A stretch of DNA of 58,122 nt from a virus: positions 1-58,122 of IMG/VR virus record IMGVR_UViG_3300024057_000003; one strand, written 5' to 3'. Positions 1-58,122 of this stretch are shown here, in pieces. Position 1 is the first letter of the stretch. Each line of letters opens with the position of its first letter. The translations under genes were made by a program, and so were the position numbers. The notes below the pieces were generated by a model that made no database searches, was not told the origin of the DNA, and saw only the letters and a program-made list of their open reading frames with translations.

Positions 1-68
1 CCCTTCAGGATCCGGACCTTGTACTTCCCGACCGGGTTGAGTTCCTTGATCAGCGCTTCTTCGACCAT
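1..68 (-). CDS. N-terminal fragment of an unknown protein, cut by the window edge
   Basis: Only the first 22 codons are inside the window. Read leftward from the ATG whose complement is at 66-68, the frame stays open to base 1 and begins MVEEALIKELNPVGKYKV. A good ribosome binding site, GGGAGAAACTCG on the minus strand, sits directly upstream. It is the last visible gene of the leftward operon and starts 32 bases after the stop of the gene at 101-610. There is too little sequence to assign a function. Confidence 0.6.
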   Translation of the reverse strand, partial: MVEEALIKELNPVGKYKVRILK

Positions 69-100: not shown

Positions 101-610
101 TTACGAGGACACGATCATGAGCATGCCGCTGTTCGACCAGCCCATCCCCAGATAGCGGTGGGCTCTGAGCTTGATGGAATCCTGGGCCTTCCTACAGTCC
201 CCGAGGATCAGGTAGGTTTCCGGGAACTTGGGCTTCGGGTCCCTCCGGCCCGTCACGTTCCGGAGGGTCACGGTGGCCCCTTTCAACGCGTGGTCATCGC
301 ATGCACGATGCAGGAAGCTTGAGGCCTTGTCCCAGTCGTCCTCGAAGTGCCGGTATAGGATGTTGTGAAGTCCGTCGCCATTGGGCGTCTTCACCGCGCC
401 ATTCTTGCCGTCCCACGATACCAGGGCCGTCCAGCATGACAGATCCATGACCTTGGTGTGGAGTTCCTCCGCCGCGGTGAGGTCCTCGCTCTTGTCGAGG
501 GTGAACTCGATTGATCCCGAGTCCACTCCCACTTTGGCCGTCTCCACGATGGGCTTCGGTACGGGTTCCTTCTTGGTTGCGGGCCTCTTTACGGCAGTCT
601 TCTTAACCAA
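101..610 (-). CDS. Hypothetical protein with basic N-terminus (169 aa)
   Basis: A 169-residue protein of unknown function. The first 20 or so residues are Lys/Pro-rich (MVKKTAVKRPATKKEPVPKP), probably a flexible tail, followed by a more globular region with several Trp and Cys residues. The start codon is TTG, supported by AGGAG about eight bases upstream on the minus strand and by the absence of a better start. It begins 10 bases after the stop of the methyltransferase gene, so the two are probably co-transcribed. No catalytic motif was recognised. Confidence 0.7.
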   Translation of the reverse strand: MVKKTAVKRPATKKEPVPKPIVETAKVGVDSGSIEFTLDKSEDLTAAEELHTKVMDLSCWTALVSWDGKNGAVKTPNGDGLHNILYRHFEDDWDKASSFLHRACDDHALKGATVTLRNVTGRRDPKPKFPETYLILGDCRKAQDSIKLRAHRYLGMGWSNSGMLMIVSS

Positions 611-620
611 GTGTCTTCTC

Positions 621-1460
621 CTAAATGAGGGCCAAAAGGGCTTCGTCCTTCTCGATGCACAGCGCGTTGCGGCCGGCGGCGAGCGCAGCCCTTCCTGTTG
701 ATAGAGATCCTGCGAAACAATCGAGGATCAACTCTCCCGGCATGGTGGCGAAGCGAATCAGCTTGTCGAGCAAGCCGATCGGCTTTTGCGTCGGATGGCG
801 CCGGCGGGAAGCGGGGATCAAGGGGCAGGACAGGACGTCGGTGACCGTGAGATCGCAGGGCTGGCGCTTCTCGCCCTTGGAGAGGAACAGGATCCCCTCG
901 TGGCGTGCGCGGCCGCTGTAGCCCATCCCCATGTGGACCTTGTCCCAGATCCACCGTTTGTTGAACACCAACCCGCATGATTGAAGGAGTTCAATCATCG
1001 CGTCGATGTGAGGCTTGGTCGTCGCCGTCTCGGCCGGGACGAAGATGAAGCAATGCGCGCCCTCCTTGAGCACGCGGTAGATCTCCATCCCCAGCTCCCG
1101 GTCGATGTCCTTGCGCTCGAAATCCCACTGCATCCGGGGCCGTGTGGTGCCGTGGCCGATGTGCCCGTCGATCCAAGGGTAGGGGGGATCTGTCACGATG
1201 GCATCCACCGAGCCGAACGGGATCTCCTTCAGAGCGTGCCACGCATCGTCGCATGCCACGACGCATGTCACGTCGCATGACGCGTTGTACGCCACGTAGA
1301 GCCCGCGACCGACGCGCTGGAACTCCTTGCCCAACCGCTCGTAGATCCGGGCGCGGATGCTGTGCTCGTGCTCGTCAGGGAGCGCGGCGTAGAGGTCTTG
1401 AACGTGGACGGGCTTCTCTCGCCCGCGAAAGAAAGTCCGGATCGCATCAATCAGAGTCAT
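621..1460 (-). CDS. DNA methyltransferase, beta class (N6-adenine or N4-cytosine), with N-terminal winged-helix-like domain
   Basis: Predicted S-adenosylmethionine-dependent DNA amino-methyltransferase of 279 aa. The catalytic motif TDPPYPW is at residues 90-96. The motif HPTQKPIGLLDKLI (about 222-235) and the cofactor-binding loop LDCFAGSLSTG (about 246-256) follow it. Catalytic motif before cofactor motif is the order of beta-class enzymes. Residues 1-58 look like a small winged-helix domain ending GRGLYVA, possibly for DNA contact. The in-frame ORF could start at 1520, but the ATG at 1460 is preferred because it overlaps the upstream gene by only 14 bases and has AGAGG upstream. The cofactor loop has SLST where many relatives have SGTT. 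No restriction endonuclease is adjacent, so self-protection or regulation is more likely than a restriction-modification pair. Confidence 0.9.
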   Translation of the reverse strand: MTLIDAIRTFFRGREKPVHVQDLYAALPDEHEHSIRARIYERLGKEFQRVGRGLYVAYNASCDVTCVVACDDAWHALKEIPFGSVDAIVTDPPYPWIDGHIGHGTTRPRMQWDFERKDIDRELGMEIYRVLKEGAHCFIFVPAETATTKPHIDAMIELLQSCGLVFNKRWIWDKVHMGMGYSGRARHEGILFLSKGEKRQPCDLTVTDVLSCPLIPASRRRHPTQKPIGLLDKLIRFATMPGELILDCFAGSLSTGRAALAAGRNALCIEKDEALLALI

Positions 1461-1839
1461 CGCCGGTAATCCTCTTCTCATCCTTGATCTCTTCTTCGTA
1501 GTGCATGTTGGCCCGGCCAAACACGTCGTCGATCCAGTCGAGACCCTCGAAATCCGCGAGGTGCATCATGTCGCACAGAAGGTCGGAGAGCTTCATCTCT
1601 ATGTCCTCGCGGCCCAGTCCCGTACGTTGGGCGAAGGTGTCGACGGCGACCTGCGCGAAGGCGGCGCGATCGCAGTTCATGATGTCCATCGGGATGCGGT
1701 CAGCGATGATCTTTTCGAGCCGTTCGTCGCCGTCGATCTGAACGTACTTTGTGCCGCCGCAGGGGCAGTTGAAGAAGCTCTCGACGCCGCTCCCCGATCT
1801 GGGATGCAACGCGTCTTCTTTCCAGCGATGTTCATGCAT
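1447..1839 (-). CDS. Hypothetical protein (130 aa)
   Basis: Unknown 130-residue protein. The N-terminus is rich in His and Cys (MHEHRWKEDALHPRSG, then FNCPCGGTKY), so a metal site is possible but incomplete as a finger. The rest is acidic and helical. The start at 1839 is chosen because it overlaps the stop of the preceding gene by only 8 bases; a longer in-frame start at 1869 lies inside that gene. It overlaps the methyltransferase start by 14 bases, which suggests translational coupling. No function can be assigned. Confidence 0.7.
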   Translation of the reverse strand: MHEHRWKEDALHPRSGSGVESFFNCPCGGTKYVQIDGDERLEKIIADRIPMDIMNCDRAAFAQVAVDTFAQRTGLGREDIEMKLSDLLCDMMHLADFEGLDWIDDVFGRANMHYEEEIKDEKRITGDDSD

Positions 1840-2254
1840 CGGTTGTCTCCTTCGCGTAGCCCTTGGCATCCTCCAAGAACTCGTTGATATCGCTGTCGTG
1901 CTCTTCGCCGAGATCAGCTTCCAAGACGTGCCCGAAGATCTCGGTAGCCCGGCCGAGCAACTCGGCGAGGTGCTCCTCCTTCATCGGCATCGTCCGGAGG
2001 ACGACCATCTGCGCGTCCTTCTCGCTGTCCCAGCCCACATGCTTGTTCATCTCCTCCGCGCGTTCTCGGGCCGTTTTCTCGTCGAGGCCGAAGAAGCCCT
2101 CGCCAGAAACGGGCGTATAGCCGCGCGTTCCCTCGTCGGCCCGGCCGATGATCCAGCCTCCTTGTGCAGCGACAGCCGTGAAAGCGAACCGCTGGCGCTG
2201 GGGCTGTTGCTTCCCGCAACCGCCTGACCTCTTCGTGCAGAAATAGGGCCTCAT
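1832..2254 (-). CDS. Hypothetical acidic protein (140 aa)
   Basis: Unknown 140-residue protein beginning MRPYFCTKRSGGCGKQ, a short Cys-containing start, followed by an acidic helical C-terminal half. The ORF can be extended to 2563, but the extension is only the shadow of the neighbouring gene. The ATG at 2254 overlaps the upstream TGA in an ATGA junction and is clearly the real start. It is part of the leftward operon. No known family was recognised. Confidence 0.75.
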   Translation of the reverse strand: MRPYFCTKRSGGCGKQQPQRQRFAFTAVAAQGGWIIGRADEGTRGYTPVSGEGFFGLDEKTARERAEEMNKHVGWDSEKDAQMVVLRTMPMKEEHLAELLGRATEIFGHVLEADLGEEHDSDINEFLEDAKGYAKETTDA

Positions 2255-2967
2255 GCAGCCTCCTTCATTTCGAGATACCTGTTGACCACGACGCCGTCCC
2301 GCGTCTCCTGGAACTCCCAGTTCTCCGTGTAGCCGAGGTACTCCTTGACGAACTCGATGGCGGGCTCCCACGCGGCGATCTCGGCATCGGAGCCGATCTT
2401 GAGGGCCTCGCCGAAGTGGTGCTTGAAGATGAGCAGGCAGGACATGACCGCCAGGTCGTAGCCGACGTTGTGGAACGTCTTGACGAAGTTCGTGATCGTC
2501 GTCGCGCCGGGCCGGATCCGGTGACGGAACTGGGGAGGGGTCATGCAGGCGAATACGAACCACTCCGCGTTGCCCAGCGTGAAGAAGATGCCGTGATCCG
2601 CGACGACAGGCCTTTTCACGCCTTCGATGCCGATGAGGTCAGGAACCCGCTTCCTCAGCTCGGGAAGGAGCTTCGCGAAGTCCTTCTTGGCCGTACGGAA
2701 CAATGCCTTGTCCATATCGACCGGCCGGTTCCAGCTGTGTGAACGCCCCATGATCATGTTCCTTTCCGGTAGTTGGATGAGAGTTCCGTTGTTGAACGGC
2801 GACACGACGGAGTCACCGACCTGATCGAAGTAGCTCGAATCGATTCCGAAGAGGCCGCCGCTCTCCGGATCCTTCCAGATCTCCACTTGGACATCACCGC
2901 CGGAATCGGGATCCCTCACGGTGACTTCCTCAATGTACTTGCCTGTCACCGTTCTCGTGGTGCTCAT
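2251..2967 (-). CDS. Hypothetical protein (238 aa)
   Basis: Unknown soluble protein of 238 aa starting MSTTRTVTGKYIEEV. It is mixed alpha/beta by eye, with no membrane segment and no recognised catalytic motif. The start at 2967 forms an ATGA overlap with the upstream gene, so it is preferred over the in-frame start at 3021. It is coupled at both ends by four-base overlaps, as expected for a translated operon member. Confidence 0.75.
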   Translation of the reverse strand: MSTTRTVTGKYIEEVTVRDPDSGGDVQVEIWKDPESGGLFGIDSSYFDQVGDSVVSPFNNGTLIQLPERNMIMGRSHSWNRPVDMDKALFRTAKKDFAKLLPELRKRVPDLIGIEGVKRPVVADHGIFFTLGNAEWFVFACMTPPQFRHRIRPGATTITNFVKTFHNVGYDLAVMSCLLIFKHHFGEALKIGSDAEIAAWEPAIEFVKEYLGYTENWEFQETRDGVVVNRYLEMKEAA

Positions 2968-3275
2968 CCTCGGCCCTCCTTGATGGCGTTCCGCGTCTCC
3001 TCCGTCGCGCCAGCCAAGCACGCGTCGTAGGCCTTCGAGTAGCTGGGCGCAATTGTCGACATCGGAGTCCCAGCCCCGGAGAGGTGCGCGATCTGCTCGG
3101 CGAAGAGGCGGCAGATCGGGTGTTTGTTCCTCCAGTCGGATCCGTGGCCCTCCTCACGGCCTTGGTCGCAGATCCGCTGCATGATCTCGGCGAAGCTGAA
3201 GACCACCCCGGACAGATTGCACGCGCTCTGGGCTTGCAGGGCTTTGTCGTAATCATCGGGCTTGATGTGACCCAT
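2964..3275 (-). CDS. Hypothetical protein (103 aa)
   Basis: Unknown 103-residue protein beginning MGHIKPDDYDKALQAQ. It has a strong ribosome binding site (TGGAGG, five bases before the ATG on the minus strand). It overlaps the next gene by ATGA. The 123 bases upstream (3276-3398) are non-coding and contain two hairpins, so transcription may be interrupted or modulated before this gene. No motif was recognised. Confidence 0.7.
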   Translation of the reverse strand: MGHIKPDDYDKALQAQSACNLSGVVFSFAEIMQRICDQGREEGHGSDWRNKHPICRLFAEQIAHLSGAGTPMSTIAPSYSKAYDACLAGATEETRNAIKEGRG

Positions 3276-3331
3276 CTTGACCTCCAGAAAAAGTAGCCTG
3301 TGGTGGTGGATGTGGTAGACTGATTGGTGCC

Positions 3332-3400
3332 GGCCAGAAGAAATACTGGCCCCAGAGAGAGGAGAGCCTGGAGCGTTCTCGTGGACCTCCAGGCTTCTTT
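3332..3400 (+). terminator. Pair of hairpins in the 3276-3398 gap; possible terminator or short structured RNA
   Basis: Two perfect stems lie in the only gap of the leftward operon: GGCCAG/CTGGCC (3332-3337 with 3346-3351) and GCCTGGAG/CTCCAGGC (3366-3373 with 3387-3394). On the plus strand the second stem is followed by TTCTTTATTT, like a weak intrinsic terminator. On the minus strand it is followed by a pyrimidine run without a U-tract. A plus-strand transcript would be antisense to nothing but this gap. The sequence TAGACT at 3316-3321 matches the -10 of the promoter at 4520, but no matching -35 was found. Function is uncertain. Confidence 0.35.
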
Positions 3401-3620
3401 ATTTCCTCGCCGGTTTGACTGTCCCGTCGATCACGTACTCGACCCTGATCTTCCTCATCGCCGGGTCGATCTTCTCGTCGAGGATCCGCTGGATCCGCCT
3501 TGCGCGGTCGGGGGTGCAGTAGCCGCCGTTCTGCTTCTCGATTAGGTCGACCATGATCTCCGTGAGTTCCTGCTCATTGAGCCGCAGCGTCGCCTTCGGC
3601 GGTTGCTTCTGACGTGCCAT
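3399..3620 (-). CDS. Small hypothetical basic protein (73 aa)
   Basis: Unknown 73-residue basic protein starting MARQKQPPKATLRLNEQEL. It is preceded by AGGAAGG six bases from the ATG, a strong ribosome binding site. It overlaps the 3' end of the upstream gene by 47 bases in a different frame, which is long but tolerable in such compact genomes. Its size and charge would fit a nucleic-acid-associated or regulatory protein, but no fold can be recognised. Confidence 0.6.
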   Translation of the reverse strand: MARQKQPPKATLRLNEQELTEIMVDLIEKQNGGYCTPDRARRIQRILDEKIDPAMRKIRVEYVIDGTVKPARK

Positions 3621-3891
3621 CGAGCGCCTTCCTTTCGCGCTTCGCCTTCCTGCGCTCCACCAGCCGCTTGTACCTTACCATGTTGTCCACGGCTCTGGAG
3701 GAGTTCCGGATCGCCCGCTTCTGGTTGGTCGTGACCGCCCGGTTGAGCTCCATCCAGGCGATCACGCCTTCGAGGGAATCCAGCCACTTCACGTTGAAGT
3801 CGAGGGCGTGATCATTCGCCTTCTTGACCGTGCGGCGGGCCAGGGACAGGTAGCGCTTGAACTGCTTATCCTTTACGGCGCCGCGCCGCAC
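3574..3891 (-). CDS. Small hypothetical basic helical protein (105 aa)
   Basis: Unknown, strongly basic, helix-rich protein of 105 aa (many Arg and Lys, few turns), ending in an acidic/Ala tail. It overlaps the previous gene's end by 26 bases and the next gene's start by 47 bases. The first ATG may not be the true start, and a shorter product beginning near residue 6 would reduce the overlap. Kept because the codon pattern resembles its neighbours and the operon would otherwise have a hole. Confidence 0.5.
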   Translation of the reverse strand: MRRGAVKDKQFKRYLSLARRTVKKANDHALDFNVKWLDSLEGVIAWMELNRAVTTNQKRAIRNSSRAVDNMVRYKRLVERRKAKRERKALDGTSEATAEGDAAAQ

Positions 3892-4141
3892 GTGCCGCTC
3901 CCTTCTTCAAGGCGATGTCGCGGGCGAGCTGGAGCCGGGCGGTGAGGACGCCGTCGAAGAGTTCGGTCAGCGCTGCTTCGTCGAGACGAATCTCAAGATG
4001 CGTGGTGTCGGTGATGAGGTTCAAAGCAACGCAACGCGGTTCCGCGTCGTCGTCTATTGCGATCATCACCGCGTCCCGGATCCTCTTCTGTCCTCGGAGA
4101 TCGACCGGGATGTACGCCTTTCCACGTGGTGGTTCTGCCAT
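3866..4141 (-). CDS. Hypothetical protein, first gene of the leftward operon (91 aa)
   Basis: Unknown 91-residue protein starting MAEPPRGKAYIPVDLRGQ. It has a very strong ribosome binding site, GGAGGAACG, immediately before the ATG. It is the first gene read leftward from the 4142-4554 intergenic region, so the operon promoter should lie between about 4150 and 4250 on the minus strand. A perfect TTGACA is present there (complement of 4206-4211), but its partner -10 at 17 bases is poor. Confidence 0.65.
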   Translation of the reverse strand: MAEPPRGKAYIPVDLRGQKRIRDAVMIAIDDDAEPRCVALNLITDTTHLEIRLDEAALTELFDGVLTARLQLARDIALKKGAARAARRRKG

Positions 4142-4194
4142 CGTTCCTCCGTATAAAAAGGGGGTTCTACCAACCTTGTACCATGAATCTAAGA

Positions 4195-4210
4195 TGACAA
4201 ATCTTTGTCA
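4195..4210. promoter_or_regulatory. 16-base perfect dyad, candidate operator between divergent units
   Basis: TGACAAATCTTTGTCA is symmetric except for the unpaired centre. It lies nine bases upstream of the -35 of the structured RNA promoter and overlaps a minus-strand TTGACA. Its position between the leftward operon and the rightward RNA fits a binding site for a dimeric regulator, but no such regulator is identified in the window. Confidence 0.5.
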
Positions 4211-4218
4211 AGATAGGC

Positions 4219-4247
4219 TTGACGGGGAGTGCCGGGGGATGTACTAT
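4219..4247 (+). promoter_or_regulatory. Near-consensus sigma70 promoter of the structured RNA
   Basis: TTGACG at 4219-4224, then exactly 17 bases, then TACTAT at 4242-4247. Transcription would begin near 4254. No coding region follows; the transcript would be the structured RNA ending at about 4468. The -35 is of the ordinary host type and unlike the TATACA-type elements in front of the structural genes, suggesting expression by host polymerase, probably early. Confidence 0.75.
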
Positions 4248-4253
4248 TCTGGT

Positions 4254-4468
4254 GACCAGGCTCTTTGGGAAACAGAACTACGCGCTCCTTGGCTGGCCGA
4301 TGCAATCGGCGCGGCACCGCAGCGTTTCTGCGGACTCCCGACCCCTTGCGCGCAAGGGACTCCGGGTGGCCAGCCATCGAACCTGAAATTCTGTTTCCCC
4401 CTCTCTCCAGGGCCAGGCCGCCTTTGAAGGTTAACCCCTCGAAGCGGTGGCCTGGCTCCTTTTATTTT
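4254..4468 (+). ncRNA. Structured non-coding RNA of about 215 nt, family not recognised
   Basis: The RNA is bounded by a sigma70 promoter and an intrinsic terminator. Perfect long-range pairings are visible: 4267-4277 (GGGAAACAGAA) with 4389-4399, and 4290-4298 (TGGCTGGCC) with 4368-4376. Inside the second helix lie three hairpins: 4298-4301/4305-4308, CCGCAG/CTGCGG (4317-4322/4328-4333) and CCCTTG/CAAGGG (4343-4348/4353-4358). This makes a four-way junction at the end of a long arm. The 5' end CCAGGC (4256-4261) can also pair with GCCTGG (4450-4455) in the terminator, which would close the molecule or compete with termination. It does not match tRNA, tmRNA, RNase P or 6S landmarks that I know. 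Overlapping short frames have no convincing coding character. Confidence 0.65.
4412..4468 (+). terminator. Intrinsic terminator of the structured RNA
   Basis: GCCAGGCC (4412-4419) pairs perfectly with GGCCTGGC (4449-4456) around a 29-base loop and is followed at once by TCCTTTTATTTT. The U-rich tail and perfect stem support termination; the long loop is unusual. Confidence 0.65.
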
Positions 4469-4519
4469 AAATCCACTTCGGCTTGCATCTGACCAGTCAC
4501 CTTTACCGCCGTCGGGGGC

Positions 4520-4548
4520 TATACAATTTGGACGACGTGGGGTAGACT
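4520..4548 (+). promoter_or_regulatory. Late-type promoter of the head operon (TATACA-N17-TAGACT)
   Basis: TATACA at 4520-4525, 17 bases, TAGACT at 4543-4548, six bases before the ATG of the 4555 gene. The flanking words GGGCTATAC and CGTGG are repeated in the promoter at 9082-9110 with the same spacing, which makes chance unlikely. With the start codon so close, the transcript would have almost no leader. Confidence 0.6.
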
Positions 4549-4554
4549 GGAATC

Positions 4555-5421
4555 ATGCCCAACATCGAGACTCAGGTTCAGGACTGGTCGACCGAGGCCG
4601 CGGACGCGTTCCTGAACCGGAAAGTCGCGCTGAACGCCTCGATCCAGAAGATCGCCTCCCGAGAAGGGCTCAATCGCGAGAAGGTCGCCCGCGTCGTCGA
4701 GGAGACGAACAAGGCCGTGTGGCTCAAGATGTTCGACAAGCAGGCCGACAAGTGCTTCACCTTCCCGGTCGCGGAGGTGGACAAGATCCTGTCCTCCGCG
4801 CCAGCCGAGCAGATCAAGGTCGCGATGGCGCGGATCCGCAGGCTGGCGCCGTCGACCGAGAAGACGGCGGCGGAGTTGATCCACGACCGCGCGATCAGGG
4901 GCTCTGGATTGCAGCGCGCACAACGGTTCTACGAGAACGCGATCCTGGCCTCCGAGGTCGTGCGGGAGAAGTCGGCCGTCGAGAGCAGGAAGCTCGTGGA
5001 AACCCAGGCGCACTTCTGCAAAGTCGCCCAGCAAATGGTCCTGGGAGAGGGGTATTCGTTCGGCGAGCTGTGTGAGGCCCTTGCCGCCTACCGGCCCGCC
5101 CACTGGAAGAAGGTCGCCGTGCTCATGAAAGTCGCGGCGACCCACATCGGCGTGAAGTTCAAGCTCCCCGAGGGGATGGAGAAGAAGGCCAACGGGATGG
5201 TCGACCCCGGGGAGCACGACATCGTGTCGCAGGTTTCCGCGTCAGGGATGCCCGTCGAGGTGATCAACGGCTCCCACAAGCTCGTGGTCGCTCTGGACAC
5301 GCTGATCGACCAGACGACGGAGGCCGACAAGGCCAACACGAACACCAAGGGCGCGGACGACACGGTGAAGTTCCTCCGCAGGGAGATCCGCAACTACATC
5401 TCCACGCACCGCGCAGTTTAG
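4555..5421 (+). CDS. Hypothetical head-region protein (288 aa)
   Basis: Unknown 288-residue, mostly helical, Ala/Lys/Glu-rich protein starting MPNIETQVQDWSTEAADAF. It contains repeated short motifs of the form K-[VTI]-A (QKIAS, EKVAR, EKTAA, KKVAV), a feature shared by many proteins of this block. It is the first gene after the promoter at 4520 and is followed 11 bases later by the next gene. Its place upstream of the protease and capsid genes suggests a head or packaging role, but no family was recognised. Confidence 0.75.
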   Translation: MPNIETQVQDWSTEAADAFLNRKVALNASIQKIASREGLNREKVARVVEETNKAVWLKMFDKQADKCFTFPVAEVDKILSSAPAEQIKVAMARIRRLAPSTEKTAAELIHDRAIRGSGLQRAQRFYENAILASEVVREKSAVESRKLVETQAHFCKVAQQMVLGEGYSFGELCEALAAYRPAHWKKVAVLMKVAATHIGVKFKLPEGMEKKANGMVDPGEHDIVSQVSASGMPVEVINGSHKLVVALDTLIDQTTEADKANTNTKGADDTVKFLRREIRNYISTHRAV

Positions 5422-6266: not shown

Positions 6267-9062
6267 GTGTACAAGCTCCTGCTCCCGCACGTCTTTCCGA
6301 ACGAACCGCCGATCAGGATCGTCAGGAGCGATTTCACCAAGCAGGCGTCCTTCTGCCCTCCGGAAGTCGCCTCCTTCTGCACGGACCTGAAGCCGGAGGA
6401 CGGGTTCACCTATCTCCATTTGAATGCCCTCGGATCTCAGGAGGTTTGGGGATCGAACGTCAACGGGGACGGATTCCCGGAGGAAGGCCTGCTTTTCAAG
6501 GGCGCGTCGCACGGCCTGAAGACCTTCGAGATGTTCGCCCACGTCTACCAGCACCACTGTTTCCCTGCGAGGACGACAGTCCTCATGGCAAATCGCGATC
6601 GGATCCCCATAGAGGACGTTCGGGAAGGTGACATGGTTATGACGCTCGAAGGGGCTCGCCCTGTGACCAAGACGATGCGTCAAGTATACGAGGGGTATGG
6701 TTCCAAGATCACTCTTCGTGGTGAGCAGGAAGATACGATAGCGACTGCCGAGCATCCGATCCTGACATATAAGAAAAATCAAGTTCACTGTGAACATGGA
6801 TATAGTCGCCAAACGCAGGGCACGCACGTCATTAACTGTCGGTCCATCCGGGAGCCGATTGGTCACCCATCCTGGATCCAAGCGTCTGAGCTGGAACCTG
6901 GAGATTACGTTGTTATCCCCCGGCCGAAACACGGGGACGAGCAGGTTGATCCATCCTTTGCAAAGCTCGTTGGGTGGGTCGCTTCAGATGGCTATCTTGG
7001 GAAAAAGGGGATCATTCAATTCTCGATTTCCGAGAAGAGCCGCGAGGACATAAGGTCCATAACATCGTGTCTCGAATCTCAGGGCGTTCGGGTTACTGTG
7101 ACGCCTATTCCAGACACCAAGATCGTAATGTTGAGTGCATGCTCACAATCACTACATGAGCGCCTGTCGCAATATGTGACTGGGGTGCTATCCCGGAAAA
7201 CGCTCACTTGCCGCGTTCTTGAGTGGGATAGACATTCGCTTTTAGATCTTCTCGGGGCTTATATCGATGGGGATGGCCATGTCGCGAGATCTGGTCGTAA
7301 TGCGGGGCAACTTAGAATTCGGTCCAGTTCTCATCAAATGAGGAATGCCCTTGCCGATGTTATCCGGGCGCTTGGCATCCCCGCCACCGTTAATGTTGAC
7401 TGCTCTCCGGGACCTATGAAATCGCCTACTAACGGGAAGACTTACTGGAGTAACGGAAGCGGGTGTGTTGCGGTTGTACCGAATCATACACGTTCTGTTG
7501 CAGTGAACAGCCGAAAGCTCGTCACCCGAAAGACCAAGGGGGCTGTCCGCTCATCTCTACTGCGCGACACATTCCTTGTCAAGGTTACAAATGTCGATCA
7601 AGTCTGGGTTAGCGAAGACGTCTTCAACTTGGAGGTTGACGGACCGCATCATTTTATTGCCAATGAGTTTGTCGCTCACAACTGCAACAAGGACCCGGCG
7701 AAGTCCATGGGGGCAGTGAAGATCGCCGCGTGGAATCCGAAGATGCACCGCGTGGAACTCATCGTGAAGGTGAGCAACAAGCGCGGGAGCGGGCTGATCG
7801 AGAAGGTCGCCTCGGGCGAATACCCGGAGTGGTCGATGGGGTGCAAGGTGCCGTACGACACCTGCTCGATCTGCAAGCACGCGGCGAAGAAGGTCTCGGA
7901 GTACTGCGACCACCTGAAGTATGCGATGAACAAGATCCTCGACGACGGTCGAAAGGTGTTCGCGATCAACGACAAGCCCAAGTTCTTCGACATCAGCGAG
8001 GTCGTGATCGGCGCGGACAAGGTGGCGAAGACGCTCCGAAAGGTCGCCAGCTCCAACCGGCCGTTCTCGTCGGCCGTGCTGGGCCTTCACTATTACGGAG
8101 AGGACGAGGGCCAGTACCCCAAAGTCCCCAAGGGGGTGCGCGAGAAGGTCGCCGCCCAGCCTGGAATGCCGAGTGAGCTGATCGCCGTCGGCGCCGAGAT
8201 CTACCGGAAGGAGCCGGAGCTTGCCCCGTCGGTGATCAAGAAGCTGGCGGCCCTTCCGCTCGCCGAGGCGCTTTCGACCCTGAGCTATACGGGCGTGGTC
8301 CTCCACCCCTCAGAGTTCCAGCGGCTCGCCCTCACCCAAGCGGGCCGGGAGAAGAAGGCTGAGAAGCTGGCGGCGCAGGGCATCGTCTTCCCGAGGATCA
8401 GTGAGGACGACGAAGCCTTGGTCGAGGTGCAGGACGATGGGATGATCCATCCCGACCACGTGTCGGAGCGCGCCTTCAAGATCGCCAGAGCCTACCTGCC
8501 GCACCGCTCGATTCTGGAGCCTTTCCTGGAGGAGCGGGTGGCGCGGCTCCCGAAGATGGCGAACCAGCCTCAGCCGCACAACATCACGTGGATCAAGACG
8601 GGGAGCGCAGGCCTCCTTGAGTTGCTCGGGACGCTCGGCCTGTCGTACTTCCTCTATCGTCGGGGATTCCCCCACGAGGCGAAGGCGTTCGAGTCCATCC
8701 TGGTGAAGAAGCCGTGGCTCGGCCCGATCCTTCTCGGCGGTGCGGCCGGGATGGTCGAACTGTCGAACGCCGCGTTCGGACCGTCGCCGCGTTCAGCCGC
8801 CCGGGAGAAGCTCCGCCAGGCGCACATGAAGGTCGGAGCGGCGTGGAAGACGATCGGCAGCGTGTTGGGGCCGGTCGGCCTGGCCTACCTCGCGGCGGCG
8901 AGCGCGGCGCGGAAGGAACTCACCGGCTACCCGCTGAGCGCGCCGGAGAGGGTGATCCGGCACTACCCCGGCCCCTTGGGGATCCTCGGGGTCTACGGGG
9001 TCCTGAAGGCTCGAAAGGCGTTGGCCGGGAAGGCCGCGCTGAAGGCTCTGGTGAAACGATGA
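6267..9062 (+). CDS. Putative prohead maturation protease, interrupted by an intein
   Basis: A precursor of 931 residues with a GTG start. Removing the intein (98-472) leaves 556 aa. The first extein part (GSNVNGDGF near 62-70, VYQHH ending at 97) continues after the intein with CNKDPAKSMGAV and, 50 residues on, EWSMGCKV. This HH...N-D-P...S-M-G pattern resembles the His/Ser layout of phage prohead serine proteases of the S78-like kind, with His96/97 and Ser523 (precursor numbering) as candidates. A Cys/His cluster (CSICKHAAKK, EYCDH) follows. The C-terminal 190 residues contain several hydrophobic segments, odd for a soluble protease. The gene lies four to six genes upstream of the capsid gene, as expected. 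The protease call rests on pattern and position only. Confidence 0.6.
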   Translation: MYKLLLPHVFPNEPPIRIVRSDFTKQASFCPPEVASFCTDLKPEDGFTYLHLNALGSQEVWGSNVNGDGFPEEGLLFKGASHGLKTFEMFAHVYQHHCFPARTTVLMANRDRIPIEDVREGDMVMTLEGARPVTKTMRQVYEGYGSKITLRGEQEDTIATAEHPILTYKKNQVHCEHGYSRQTQGTHVINCRSIREPIGHPSWIQASELEPGDYVVIPRPKHGDEQVDPSFAKLVGWVASDGYLGKKGIIQFSISEKSREDIRSITSCLESQGVRVTVTPIPDTKIVMLSACSQSLHERLSQYVTGVLSRKTLTCRVLEWDRHSLLDLLGAYIDGDGHVARSGRNAGQLRIRSSSHQMRNALADVIRALGIPATVNVDCSPGPMKSPTNGKTYWSNGSGCVAVVPNHTRSVAVNSRKLVTRKTKGAVRSSLLRDTFLVKVTNVDQVWVSEDVFNLEVDGPHHFIANEFVAHNCNKDPAKSMGAVKIAAWNPKMHRVELIVKVSNKRGSGLIEKVASGEYPEWSMGCKVPYDTCSICKHAAKKVSEYCDHLKYAMNKILDDGRKVFAINDKPKFFDISEVVIGADKVAKTLRKVASSNRPFSSAVLGLHYYGEDEGQYPKVPKGVREKVAAQPGMPSELIAVGAEIYRKEPELAPSVIKKLAALPLAEALSTLSYTGVVLHPSEFQRLALTQAGREKKAEKLAAQGIVFPRISEDDEALVEVQDDGMIHPDHVSERAFKIARAYLPHRSILEPFLEERVARLPKMANQPQPHNITWIKTGSAGLLELLGTLGLSYFLYRRGFPHEAKAFESILVKKPWLGPILLGGAAGMVELSNAAFGPSPRSAAREKLRQAHMKVGAAWKTIGSVLGPVGLAYLAAASAARKELTGYPLSAPERVIRHYPGPLGILGVYGVLKARKALAGKAALKALVKR
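6558..7682 (+). mobile_element. In-frame intein with LAGLIDADG homing endonuclease (375 aa)
   Basis: The intein begins with Cys98 (CFPARTTVLM), contains the TAEHPIL motif typical of splicing block B, and ends HHFIANEFVAHN before a Cys +1 extein residue, giving all standard splicing residues (C1, TxxH, HN, C+1). Two LAGLIDADG helices are visible, LVGWVASDGY (234-243, Asp241) and LLGAYIDGDG (328-337, Asp334 or Asp336), so the endonuclease looks intact. The DNA is visibly less GC-rich with freer codon use than the flanking extein, a sign of recent acquisition. Insertion is exactly after the His-His pair of the proposed protease active site, in line with the tendency of inteins to sit in conserved catalytic motifs. 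Confidence 0.92.
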
Positions 9063-9081: not shown

Positions 9082-9110
9082 TATACGATTTCCTGTTCGT
9101 GGATTAGGAT
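9082..9110 (+). promoter_or_regulatory. Late-type promoter (TATACG-N17-TAGGAT)
   Basis: TATACG at 9082-9087, 17 bases, TAGGAT at 9105-9110. It lies in the 104-base gap between the protease gene and the acidic protein gene at 9167. It shares the extended words GGGCTATAC and CGTGG with the promoter at 4520. It would drive the scaffold, decoration and capsid genes separately from the protease. Confidence 0.6.
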
Positions 9111-13040: not shown

Positions 13041-13553
13041 GTGGCGATTGACAGGCTCACGTTCATCGAGCAGGTCCGCGACTACATGCGGGACTTCCCC
13101 GAGTTCAACGCCCTGACTCCGGGGGAGGAAACGAGCGACAGCCTGATCAACCTGTGCGCGGACCTCGCCGCCGACGACTTCTCGACCACGATGCCGCCGA
13201 TCGGCCAGTTCACGGTCGAGAGCCACCCGTCGCTTTACCTGCTCCTGTTGGGCACGGTCATCCAGATCCTCCGCTCCGCGGGGATCCTCCAGGCCCGCAA
13301 CAACCTCAACTACTCGGACGGCGGCCTGACGGTCGCGACGTCGGACAAGGCGCCGATCTATCAGGCCTACGCGAACTGGATCATCGGGGAGTACGAGCGC
13401 AAGAAGCGGACGCTGAAGATCTCGCTCAACGCCGGGACCGCGTACGGTGGCGTCCGAAGCGAGTACAGTTGGATCGGAGCGTACGGCCAGTACATCGGAC
13501 TTGCCAGCATCGACTCCTATACAGCGGTGCGCTTCGGGTCTATAATCTTCTGA
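13041..13553 (+). CDS. Putative head completion / head-tail connector protein (170 aa)
   Basis: A 170-residue protein with GTG start. It begins with helices (RLTFIEQVRDYMRDF), has a central hydrophobic helix (SLYLLLLGTVIQIL) and ends with a Tyr/Gly-rich region. The helix-rich start and location right after the capsid gene suit a head-tail connector or adaptor, but there is no diagnostic motif. The promoter for the next gene lies inside its last 36 bases. Confidence 0.5.
   Translation: MAIDRLTFIEQVRDYMRDFPEFNALTPGEETSDSLINLCADLAADDFSTTMPPIGQFTVESHPSLYLLLLGTVIQILRSAGILQARNNLNYSDGGLTVATSDKAPIYQAYANWIIGEYERKKRTLKISLNAGTAYGGVRSEYSWIGAYGQYIGLASIDSYTAVRFGSIIF
13518..13546 (+). promoter_or_regulatory. 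Late-type promoter (TATACA-N17-TATAAT)
   Basis: TATACA at 13518-13523, exactly 17 bases, TATAAT at 13541-13546. It is embedded in the 3' end of the preceding gene and faces the run of small leader-bearing proteins starting at 13567. This is the cleanest copy of the TATACA-type promoter in the window. Confidence 0.7.
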
Positions 13554-18476: not shown

Positions 18477-18505
18477 TATAAATATCGGAGTGACGGGAGT
18501 ATAAT
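18477..18505 (+). promoter_or_regulatory. Late-type promoter (TATAAA-N17-TATAAT)
   Basis: TATAAA at 18477-18482, 17 bases, TATAAT at 18500-18505, 11 bases upstream of the ATG at 18516. It occupies the 46-base gap after the beta-rich gene pair and would start the tail operon. Confidence 0.65.
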
Positions 18506-53335: not shown

Positions 53336-55312
53336 ATGCCGGTAAGTGGAGTCCCTGGAGACACGTCATTCGGCGGTGGAAGCCGGGCAACAGGGCGCGC
53401 GCAGTTCTACCCATCGCCCTTCTTCGACATCGCTGGCACCTATTTCCCCGAGACCCCGAAGGCGCTCTTCCGGTTCTGCCGGTACTACTACTACACGATC
53501 GGGATCATCGGGGCCGCGGTCGACGTCCACGCCGCCTACCCGGTGACTGGACTGGCGATCGACAGCGACGACGAGGATCTGAGCAAGAAGTGGGACCAGA
53601 TCCTCAACAAGCGCTTCAAGATCACGGCCTTCCTCGTCGAGGCGGGCAAGGACTACGTCACGTACGGCAACTGCTTCATCTCGATCTACATCCCCCAGAA
53701 GCGGTATCTCGTCTGCCCGAACTGCAAGACGAATCATCCGATCGACACGGTCTCCTATGAGTTCAAGGCGTTCCGCTTCCAAGGGGCGTGCAAGAAGTGT
53801 GGCAATCACGTCCGTTACGAAGTGAAGGACGAGCCGACGAAGGACATCAATCAGGTGAACCTCGTCCGGTGGTCGCCCGAGAACATCGACATCGAGTACA
53901 ACCCGATCACAGGCGAGCACCGCTACAAGTATGCGATCCCGAACGAGATCAAGAGGTTGGTCACCTTGGGCCGGCGGCACATCATCGAGACGATGCCGGT
54001 TTCTTTCTTGGAAGCGATCCGGGACAACCTCAACGTCGAGTTCAACCCCAAGAACCTGTTCCACCTGAAGCGCCCCTCTCTGGCCGAGAAGAACATGGGC
54101 TGGGGCGAACCAGCGATGATCCGGAACCTCAAGGATCTCTACTACCTCCAGATCCTCAAGAAGGCGCGCGAGCAGGTCGCCCATCAGCACATCGTTCCGC
54201 TCTGGGTGATCTTCCCCCAGCCGCACGGGGAGTTGAATCCCTACGAGCATCTCAACCTCGCGGAGTGGCGCGGCCGGATGGAGAATGAACTCAAGCAGTG
54301 GCGGCAAGATCCAAACTACATCCCGATCATGCCGATGCCCGTGGGATTCCAGTTCATCGGAGGCTCGTTCAAAAATCTGGACACGACCCCGGAGACGCAG
54401 AACCTCCTCCTGAACATCCTCGCCGGGATGAACATGCCGCAGGAGTTCGTGTACGGCGGCCTCCAGTACTCGGGGACCAGCTTCTCGATCCGGATGCTGT
54501 CGAACCTCTTCAGCACGTATCGCGGCCAGTTGAGCGAGTTCCTCAACGGCTTCTTCATCCCGCGGCTCTCCGAGGTCTTCTCGATCGAGCCTGTGCAGAC
54601 GCACTTCACCGATCTCAAGCTCGCAGACGACGTGCAGAAGAAGCAGGTCCTCCTCGCCCTCAATCAGCAGAACAAGCTCTCGACCGGAACCCTGCTGTCG
54701 GAGATGGATCTCGACGCCAGCATGGAGATGAAGAAGATCAAGGACGAGCTGGAGGAGCAGGGCGAGATCCTGGGCAAGCAGATGGTCACCCAGGAGAAGG
54801 CGAAGGCCGAGGCGTTGCTCGCCAACATCCGGGGCCAGATCAAGGCGAGGCTCATGGAGCAGCCGATCGCCCAGGAAGTGGCCGACGAACTCAACACCAA
54901 GGTCATCCTCGACAACCCCGACCGGCCGTTCAAGATCAACCATCAGCTCTGGCAGCACATCTTCCAAGGTGGCGGGGAGGGCGCGTCCTCCGATGGCGGG
55001 CAACCCTTCTTCCAGCTCTCCCCCGCAGACATCCCGGCGACGGTGAAGTCGCTGGCGAAGTCCATCCAGGGCAACAACGAGAAGCGCAGGAAGGAAATCC
55101 TTTCGGAACTTCAGGCCTCGATGCCGATCATGCACGACCTCGTCTCGAATGAGTTGGCCGCGCAACCCGGACAGGGCGGGAATGGGTCGTCGAACAAGGA
55201 AGTCCTGCCGCGCCCGCGCGGAGCAAATACAGCGACGAGCACCAAGGGAACGACGGCCGACATGCGCCCGCTCCCGCCCAAGAACCCGCCCCGCAGGAAA
55301 GGTAGCAATTAA
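53336..55312 (+). CDS. Portal protein with internal zinc ribbon (658 aa)
   Basis: Portal-like protein of 658 aa. The start (RFCRYYYYTIGIIGAAVDV, about 46-64) and the central stretches GEPAMIRNLKDLYYLQIL and EFVYGGLQYSGTSFSIRMLS (wing/clip-like region near 375-395) resemble phage portal proteins, which form the head-vertex dodecamer for DNA passage. Residues 127-155 carry two CxxC pairs (CPNCKTNH, ACKKCGNH), a zinc ribbon uncommon for portals. A long helical C-terminal part and a basic Pro/Arg-rich tail follow. Portal separated from the capsid genes by about 40 kb is unusual. No ribosome binding site is obvious; translation may be coupled to the upstream gene. Confidence 0.65.
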   Translation: MPVSGVPGDTSFGGGSRATGRAQFYPSPFFDIAGTYFPETPKALFRFCRYYYYTIGIIGAAVDVHAAYPVTGLAIDSDDEDLSKKWDQILNKRFKITAFLVEAGKDYVTYGNCFISIYIPQKRYLVCPNCKTNHPIDTVSYEFKAFRFQGACKKCGNHVRYEVKDEPTKDINQVNLVRWSPENIDIEYNPITGEHRYKYAIPNEIKRLVTLGRRHIIETMPVSFLEAIRDNLNVEFNPKNLFHLKRPSLAEKNMGWGEPAMIRNLKDLYYLQILKKAREQVAHQHIVPLWVIFPQPHGELNPYEHLNLAEWRGRMENELKQWRQDPNYIPIMPMPVGFQFIGGSFKNLDTTPETQNLLLNILAGMNMPQEFVYGGLQYSGTSFSIRMLSNLFSTYRGQLSEFLNGFFIPRLSEVFSIEPVQTHFTDLKLADDVQKKQVLLALNQQNKLSTGTLLSEMDLDASMEMKKIKDELEEQGEILGKQMVTQEKAKAEALLANIRGQIKARLMEQPIAQEVADELNTKVILDNPDRPFKINHQLWQHIFQGGGEGASSDGGQPFFQLSPADIPATVKSLAKSIQGNNEKRRKEILSELQASMPIMHDLVSNELAAQPGQGGNGSSNKEVLPRPRGANTATSTKGTTADMRPLPPKNPPRRKGSN

Positions 55313-55321
55313 CCAGGACCG

Positions 55322-58122
55322 ATGGCCGACCTCTTCGACACCGACGAGCAGTTTGAGAACATCAAGGGGAGTCTGTCCAGAGCGGTCAAGCAGGCCCTCG
55401 CCGTCGAGGGAAAGAAGCATCGCCTGGTCGTCCGCAAGGTCGAGGTGAAGGACACGCTCGACGCCAGCGACATCAAGAGCCAGCTCGACGCGAAGATGAA
55501 CCAGAAGACGTGGGGTGTGCCGCTCCATGCGGATCTGGAACTTCAGGACGTGGCGACCGGAGATACGGTCGATCGCCAGCGGGTCAAGCTCCTGGACATC
55601 CCCAAGCTCACGCCGCGGTATAGCTTCATCGTCAACGGCTCGGAGTTCCAGATCTCCAACCAGCTCCGCCTCAAGCCCGGCGCCTACATCCGCAAGCGCA
55701 GGACCGGAGAGACCGAAGCGTTCGTCAATCTGGAGCGCGGCCGCAACTTCAGGATCGAGCTCCGGCCCAAGAGGGGGCAGGTGATGGCCGAGATCGGTTC
55801 GGCCAACGTGAACGTCTACAGCCTGTTCCACATCCTCGGCCTCAAGGACAAGGAGATCCAGGACACGCTGGGCACGGATCTCCACTCCTCGATCGTCACG
55901 CCGAACGTGGATGTGGACATCCTAAAACTCAACAACTCCCTGTTCCGCGACAAGGAGACGAACGTCGAGAAGGCCCTCGGCAACCTGCGAGCCTACTTCA
56001 AGGAGACGAAGATCAGCCCGGAGACGACGGAGGCGACGCTGGGCCGGAGCTTCACGAGCGTCAATGGAGACATGCTCCTGCGGACTGTGAAGAAGCTCGT
56101 CGCGGTCAACCGAGGAGAAGCCGAACCGGACAACCGCGACGAGGTCCGCTACAAGAAGCTGTTCACCCCCGACGACCTCTTGGAGCAACGCATCTCGAAG
56201 AACGTGCGGCTCATCCAGTCCAGGATCCGCCAGAGGCTCGATTCAGCGACCGAGGTCCGCGATGCCGTTCATCCACCCCAGATCTCGAAGCTTGTCTACG
56301 CCGGCCGTGGCGAGAACGCCGAAGGCAGTTTCTACAACTCCAGCTCGCTGTCGACTAGCCCCGATCAGACCAACCCTGTGGACTTCCTGTCCGGGTTCAC
56401 GAAGGTCACGTACCTCGGCGAGGGCGGGATCCTGGACCGCCACGCGATTACCCTTCCCAGCAGGAACATCAACCCCACCCAGATCGGATTCCTCGATCCC
56501 GTCCATACCCCTGAGAACGCGGATATCGGCGTGGTCAACCACCTTCCGCTCGGGGTCGTCAAGCGGAAGGGGGAGATGAAGACGCGGGTCCAGGACCGCC
56601 AGGGCAAGATGACGCATCTCAGTTCACACGATGCCTTTGGCCAGACGATCGCGTTGCCGGGGGAGATTGACGACAAATGGAAGTCGCTGAAGGCTGAGCG
56701 CGTCACGGCCTACCGCGCCGGCAAGGTCGTTCAGGTGGACCCGAGCGAGGTGACTCATCGGTTCACTGACCCCGCTGACCTTTTCGGGGTGAGCACGAAC
56801 CTCATCCCCTTCATGTCCGCAAACTCCGGTGCCCGCGCAATGATGGGCGCCAAGATGCTTCCCCAAGCCCTTCCGCTTGTGGAGCGTGAGGCTCCTCTGG
56901 TCCAAGCGCGGCTTCGAGGTGATGTCAGCGCGGACCAAGCCGTCGGCTCGGAGTTCTCCCTCCATAGCCCCGTCTCCGGCAAGGTCGTCTCGGCTGAGGA
57001 CGGCGTCTTGAAGATCGAGGATTCTGAGGGGGACGTCCACGACATCCAGTACTACGAGAACTTCCCCCTCAACGGGGACGTGGGGATCACGTCAGAAATC
57101 CTTGTCGCCGCGGGAGACAAGGTGAAGAAGGGCCAGTTGGTCGCCGACACGAACTTCACGCGGGACGGATCGCTGGCCCTCGGCAAGAATCTGAGGGTGG
57201 CATATCTGCCCTACAAAGGTTTAACTTTCGAGGACGGGATCGCGATCAGCGAAACGGCCTCGCGTAAGATGACCTCAGAGCACCTTCACCGCCGCGAGTC
57301 ACCGCGGATCCGCTCGGGGGGCGTGGGGACGATCTACGACCGGAAGAAGTTCAGCGCCTACTACCCCACGGTGTTCGACCGCGAGCAGCTTGAGAAGCTG
57401 GACGATCAGGGCGTCATTCAGGTAGGCCAGACCGTTCGGCCGGGAGATCCGATCATCGCCTACATGCAGGAGAAGCAGATCACCCCCGAGGACGTGGCGA
57501 TGGGCAAGCTGAGGAAGTCCCTCGTCAAGCCGTACAAGAACCGCTCGGTCACTTGGGATCTCGACGACGAAGGCGAGGTGGTCAGGATCTCCAAGACCTC
57601 TGAAGGTCCGATCGTCTGGGTCAAGACGAAGGAGCCGATCCGGATCGGCGACAAGCTCGCCGGCCGTCATGGGAACAAGGGCGTGGTCACCGCGATCGTG
57701 CCGGATCGGGAGATGCCGAAGACCCAAGACGGAGAGCCTGTCGAGATCATCATGGACCCCCACGGGATCCCGTCTCGAATCAACGTAGGCCAGGTCTTCG
57801 AGACCGTGGCCGGGAAGCTCGCGAAGAAATCCAAGCGGCCGTACTTGGTGGACAACTTCACGGACAGATCCTACATTGACGACCTGACGGCCGAGATCAA
57901 GCGGGCGAAGATCACGGACACGGAGACGTTGGTCGACCCAACAACGGAGGAGACGCTGGGTGACGGGCTCGTGGGATACCAGCACATCATGAAACTCCGT
58001 CACCCAGTCCGCACCAAGTTCGCCGGTCGCGGAACGGACAAGTACACGATGGACAACCGTCCGGCCAAGGGCGGGGAAGGATCGGCCCAGAGCCTCGATC
58101 CGCTCAAGATGTTCTCGATGCT
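55322..58122 (+). CDS. rpoB: DNA-directed RNA polymerase beta subunit (RpoB), 3' end outside the window
   Basis: The beta subunit of multi-subunit RNA polymerase; the frame is open to the window edge (933 codons seen). Landmarks in order: a fork-loop/rifampicin region at 335-370 (SSSLSTSPDQTNPVDFL ... TYLGEGGI), HTPENADIGVVNHL after it, GLTFEDGIAISE (633-644, Glu637-Asp638), GDKLAGRHGNKGVV (776-789 with Lys778 and Lys786 equal to the catalytic-site lysines), DPHGIPSRINVGQ (812-824), and KGGEGSAQSLDPLKMFSML at the edge, near the end of beta. The protein is compact: the rifampicin region starts at about 335 instead of about 510 in E. coli, so N-terminal insertions are missing. It is a single uninterrupted gene, unlike the split subunits of phiKZ-like phages. 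Confidence 0.93.
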   Translation, partial: MADLFDTDEQFENIKGSLSRAVKQALAVEGKKHRLVVRKVEVKDTLDASDIKSQLDAKMNQKTWGVPLHADLELQDVATGDTVDRQRVKLLDIPKLTPRYSFIVNGSEFQISNQLRLKPGAYIRKRRTGETEAFVNLERGRNFRIELRPKRGQVMAEIGSANVNVYSLFHILGLKDKEIQDTLGTDLHSSIVTPNVDVDILKLNNSLFRDKETNVEKALGNLRAYFKETKISPETTEATLGRSFTSVNGDMLLRTVKKLVAVNRGEAEPDNRDEVRYKKLFTPDDLLEQRISKNVRLIQSRIRQRLDSATEVRDAVHPPQISKLVYAGRGENAEGSFYNSSSLSTSPDQTNPVDFLSGFTKVTYLGEGGILDRHAITLPSRNINPTQIGFLDPVHTPENADIGVVNHLPLGVVKRKGEMKTRVQDRQGKMTHLSSHDAFGQTIALPGEIDDKWKSLKAERVTAYRAGKVVQVDPSEVTHRFTDPADLFGVSTNLIPFMSANSGARAMMGAKMLPQALPLVEREAPLVQARLRGDVSADQAVGSEFSLHSPVSGKVVSAEDGVLKIEDSEGDVHDIQYYENFPLNGDVGITSEILVAAGDKVKKGQLVADTNFTRDGSLALGKNLRVAYLPYKGLTFEDGIAISETASRKMTSEHLHRRESPRIRSGGVGTIYDRKKFSAYYPTVFDREQLEKLDDQGVIQVGQTVRPGDPIIAYMQEKQITPEDVAMGKLRKSLVKPYKNRSVTWDLDDEGEVVRISKTSEGPIVWVKTKEPIRIGDKLAGRHGNKGVVTAIVPDREMPKTQDGEPVEIIMDPHGIPSRINVGQVFETVAGKLAKKSKRPYLVDNFTDRSYIDDLTAEIKRAKITDTETLVDPTTEETLGDGLVGYQHIMKLRHPVRTKFAGRGTDKYTMDNRPAKGGEGSAQSLDPLKMFSM

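Follow-up and report, generated by a model that had tools for sequence, protein, structure and literature searches.

The small RNAs PreS, OOP and 6S of phage lambda have promoters and terminators of their own. The last of these is the terminated product of the lambda pR'-tR' unit, a transcript of about 200 nt situated directly upstream of the late genes. Bacterial 6S RNA is closed by a stem much longer than the 11 bp of the RNA described here, and the large ornate RNAs GOLLD and ROOL are much larger molecules than the latter. GOLLD and ROOL are structured, non-coding and often found in phage or prophage DNA (PMC12286853). More generally, phage small RNAs are a known, sparsely characterised kind (PMC12197685; phiKZ ncRNAs in PMC8545117), and the phage-encoded intergenic ones include lambda PreS, OOP and 6S as well as the phiKZ ncRNAs found by Grad-seq (PMC12197685, PMC8545117).

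The RNA predicted here resembles the lambda and phiKZ small RNAs in being a short intergenic phage RNA, and the lambda cases also in the possession of its own promoter and terminator. However, it exceeds OOP (77 nt) and PreS (about 88 nt) in both size and branching, and no sequence relative of it was found. With the lambda late leader it would share a terminated transcript of about 200 nt directly before late genes, whereas the late gene concerned here is preceded, beyond the terminator, by a separate promoter motif of a different type. Likeness to bacterial 6S RNA (RF00013 and relatives) lies in a long hairpin, a large symmetric interior loop and a similar size, but the 6S covariance models did not match, 11 bp stand below the loop and the top is branched. 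GOLLD and ROOL are likewise structured non-coding RNAs of phage DNA; unlike them, the present RNA is without an Rfam match.

The window, i.e. the whole stretch of DNA that was analysed, is a linear virus record of 58,122 bases from IMG/VR (IMGVR_UViG_3300024057_000003), a fragment of 58 kb. Its genes for the tail sheath and baseplate, the protease and the capsid assign the phage to a myovirus lineage. Among named phages, it is related to Salmonella phage Arash and to Vibrio phages D69, D148 and D181, with a capsid protein identity of about 30%, and identity of this protein to IMG/VR relatives reached up to 52%. Gene calling delimited a leftward operon at 101-4141 (-), a gap of 413 nt and a rightward head and tail (virion) operon starting at 4555 (+). 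Coding signal was absent from the gap, overlapping ORFs having a mean log-odds of about -0.28 per codon versus +0.1 to +0.5 for the neighbouring genes. Three of these ORFs, at 3915-4427 (+), 4189-4377 (-) and 4265-4492 (+), were rejected as coding on account of anti-coding codon usage, in agreement with a preliminary description which had noted about 215 nt devoid of a gene. Within 250 nt of this noncoding gap, a promoter, an inverted repeat and a terminator were found in the same orientation (Table 1). A palindrome lies between the divergent transcription units, just upstream of the promoter, and overlaps a leftward TTGACA; it is possibly an operator.

Table 1. Sequence features of the gap between the divergent operons and of the RNA predicted within it
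Feature	Positions	Strand	Remarks
Palindrome GACAAA-TC-TTTGTC (GACAAATCTTTGTC)	4196-4209		Perfect inverted repeat, one exact copy in window
Host (sigma70-type) promoter-like element TTGACG-N17-TACTAT	4219-4247	+	9/12 consensus bases, spacer 17; predicted start ~4254
Predicted structured non-coding RNA, ~215 nt	4254-4468	+	Fold z -3.85; without coding signal
RNA core	4267-4399	+	P1, P2, P4 and P5, by pair probabilities
P1	4267-4277/4389-4399	+	11 bp, pair probability ~0.85-1.0
P2	4290-4298/4368-4376	+	9 bp, pair probability ~0.85-1.0
P4	4317-4322/4328-4333	+	Firm hairpin above P2
P5	4337-4340/4363-4366 plus 4343-4348/4353-4358	+	Firm hairpin above P2
CU-rich linker CCUCUCUCCA	4400-4409	+	Unpaired probability ~0.4-1.0; candidate base-pairing seed
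Intrinsic terminator (long GC hairpin followed by CCTTTTATTTT)	4410-4468	+	Strongest terminator in window
Putative late promoter TATACA-N17-TAGACT	4520-4548	+	Between RNA terminator and gene 4555

The promoter-like element reported in the preliminary description was found at its place, and for the pattern TTGACR-16..18-TANNNT it was the sole site on both strands of the 58 kb, with 0.25 expected. Its qualification as optimal or perfect was nevertheless overstated, since sites matching 9 of 12 consensus bases are not rare in the window (11 found versus about 6.9 expected). At the opposite end of the unit, the GC stem and U-run described earlier were recovered as a hairpin followed by the expected tract, of top strength for the window and with a folding energy of -32.6 kcal/mol.

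Comparison of fold z-scores gave -3.1 for the core alone and -4.3 for the terminator part, next to the value for the entire RNA. Both long helices of the preliminary description (P1 and P2) were predicted with high pair probabilities, and the interior loop that separates them is symmetric, of about 12x12 nt, with few weak pairs. They belong to a nested inverted repeat (4267-4298/4368-4399) in which 25 of 32 positions are paired, a figure equalled in none of 500 dinucleotide shuffles of the gap, so that the complementarity is far beyond chance. A perfect stem as long as the longest one, 11 bp, was reached in 2 of 500 dinucleotide shuffles, and a P1 of at least 9 bp combined with a P2 of at least 8 bp in the same arrangement occurred about twice per 1.16 Mb of shuffled DNA. 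A four-way junction with three inner hairpins had also been proposed. Two of these hairpins, P4 and P5, are firm, but the third (4301-4303/4309-4311) was predicted with a probability of 0.3-0.44 only and is in competition with the terminal part of P2, which makes a three-way junction of P2, P4 and P5 the safe reading. Folding of the minus strand is as good or better (z of -4.89 versus -3.85), so that the orientation of the RNA is given solely by the polarity of promoter and terminator.

No match for the RNA was obtained with Rfam 15 (4227 models) at the gathering threshold, and two weak chance matches only appeared at E<=10, the best sub-threshold one being Scr3202 (RF02833, E 5.2), which spans the terminator part. 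ARAGORN detected 0 tRNA or tmRNA genes in the window. The dissimilarity to tRNA, tmRNA and 6S noted beforehand was thus upheld. Distant blastn of the RNA yielded no match in phages and two chance-level pieces of 29-41 nt in plasmids. Scans of IMG/VR with an 18-mer, with two loop patterns of 16 nt and with a pattern for the P1 helix revealed no relative of the RNA, matches to the loop and P1-helix patterns being checked with a covariance model of the core. Run over 24 whole related records, the window and the locus stretches, this model found no homologue. Searches for homologues of the RNA with nhmmer and blastn were negative, and no homologue was reached by way of the neighbouring proteins on its flanks; the check suggested in the preliminary description, homologues in related phages, gave none among these 24 records. 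An architecture scan of the relatives produced one chance-level match besides the window, and a capsid protein search of GTDB genomes one remote capsid relative, on a 5-kb contig. In seven related loci the counterpart of gene 4555 has a divergent start preceded by a short gap without the RNA, and in a relative of 61 kb it lies inside a rightward gene run with no gap before it. By these comparisons the RNA looks lineage-specific at this locus, but its absence from the relatives is tentative, as their contigs are mostly fragments.

The motif TATA[AC][AG]-N17-TANNNT occurs at four sites in the window (4520-4548, 9082-9110, 13518-13546 and 18477-18505). All four are on the + strand, with a spacer of exactly 17, 0-50 nt before a gene, and 0 were found in 40 shuffles, a figure that flatters the motif because it was derived by eye from the same intergenic sequences and counted afterwards, which deprives the count of independence as a test. 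Probably this is the class of promoter that the phage uses late: TATAMR-17-TANNNT stands before virion genes, among them gene 4555 just after the terminator, where the site at 4520-4548 would give a putative leaderless mRNA starting at ATG 4555. Owing to this separate motif between the terminator and gene 4555, the RNA appears to form a unit of its own under a promoter of host type, and an independent early trans-acting RNA is favoured over a late-operon leader.

The reading that suits the locus best, with partial support from the sequence, is a discrete unit of transcription for a structured, non-coding RNA that resembles no Rfam family. It would represent an orphan RNA gene of this phage, credible though not proven. 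Support comes from its noncoding nature, its non-random fold, a promoter and terminator in register and the separate late-promoter motif downstream; as for phage small RNA genes, the sequence signals of a promoter and an intrinsic terminator of its own were found in intergenic noncoding DNA. We lean slightly towards an independent phage non-coding RNA gene, read by the host RNA polymerase into a transcript of about 215 nt with its own terminator, and likely trans-acting and early. Host polymerase would transcribe it from a promoter type differing from the phage late promoters, and transcription would end at the strong terminator of the unit. With its closing helix of 11 bp, its branched core and the hairpin of its terminator the RNA would be stable, and it would most likely act in trans early in infection, its unpaired segments (the interior loop and the CU-rich linker) possibly contacting mRNA starts or a protein partner. 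Transcription, early timing, action in trans and the target are what we infer from these signals.

The linker paired slightly better at translation starts (-8.45) than inside genes (-7.05), a weak excess that CU composition alone could explain, and a search for mRNA targets of the RNA yielded no significant one. Pairing of the linker with plus-strand RNA 3325-3374 (-37 kcal/mol) is weak as well, because 1% of random windows match or beat this value. A second plus-strand hairpin and terminator-like unit is located at 3325-3403 (+), within the leftward operon, and consists of GGCCAG..CTGGCC followed by AGCCTGGAG..CTCCAGGCT-TCTTTATTT.

The succession of a promoter, about 215 nt, a terminator and, 86 nt further on, the opening gene of a long virion operon in the same direction would also suit a head-operon leader like lambda pR'-tR', with a terminator between promoter and late operon as in lambda, at which the transcript would stop unless an antitermination factor permitted read-through into gene 4555. 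This is quite improbable in our view. The separate late-promoter motif argues, short of proof, against it, no antiterminator gene was recognised beside the RNA and the seven related loci with a divergent start lack the RNA. Pairing of the RNA 5' end with the terminator, which had been claimed earlier, was no better than chance (energy of -13.8 versus -11.9 +/- 2.7 for shuffled sequences, p ~0.29), and the terminator arms paired with RNA upstream of them, as an alternative to the hairpin, no more strongly than shuffled sequences did (p 0.98 and 0.54). An attenuator or riboswitch with competing stems, attractive by eye, was rejected for this same reason, its antiterminator pairing not exceeding shuffles.

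Another possible explanation is that the RNA itself is functionless and the unit a by-product or an insulator, in which a strong terminator and a stabilising stem would shield the divergent operons from each other. The location between these operons, the strength of the terminator and the lack of a conserved relative of the RNA across the 24 records are consistent with it, but a 25/32 inverted repeat and a branched core are unneeded for termination and far beyond chance, and we give this explanation little credence. The symmetric arms and the better z-score of the minus strand could instead reflect an inverted repeat acting at the DNA level, either a small mobile-element remnant or a protein-binding palindrome, for which promoter and terminator would be coincidental. 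Their being in register speaks against such a coincidence, as do the lack of a second copy in the window or the relatives and of an evident target-site duplication in the flanks, which renders this origin distinctly unlikely. On similar grounds, a miniature inverted-repeat element was discarded: the inverted repeat is present, but further copies and a target-site duplication were not found.

By extension, the independent RNA gene could stand for a novel class among structured phage RNAs, expressed early through the host polymerase and dedicated to a role such as host takeover or deciding when late transcription sets in, but this is rather doubtful; the phage concerned has, besides, a gene for a bacterial-type RNA polymerase beta subunit of its own. 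If transcribed, the locus would yield a structured orphan RNA in a little-studied lineage of large phages, one that encodes a multisubunit-type RNA polymerase. Such RNAs can report on host takeover; the claim made for the locus is a modest one.

The beta-subunit gene (55322-58122, +) is open at its right end and its product matched Pfam Rpb2_6 (E 7.6e-54). Against solved structures, the match to bacterial beta (E 1e-75) was far stronger than that to the 665-aa chain 7s00_C (E 4e-15), which we take to be a phage polymerase chain. The beta-subunit gene is adjoined by a portal-like gene (53336-55312, +), distant from the protease and capsid genes. An intein bearing a LAGLIDADG homing endonuclease domain interrupts the head maturation protease (6267-9062, +), whose extein parts match Arash and Vibrio phage proteins. 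In Arash, a single run comprises polymerase beta, helicase and the head genes as far as the protease, and the head-gene order of the window phage is possibly rearranged relative to it.
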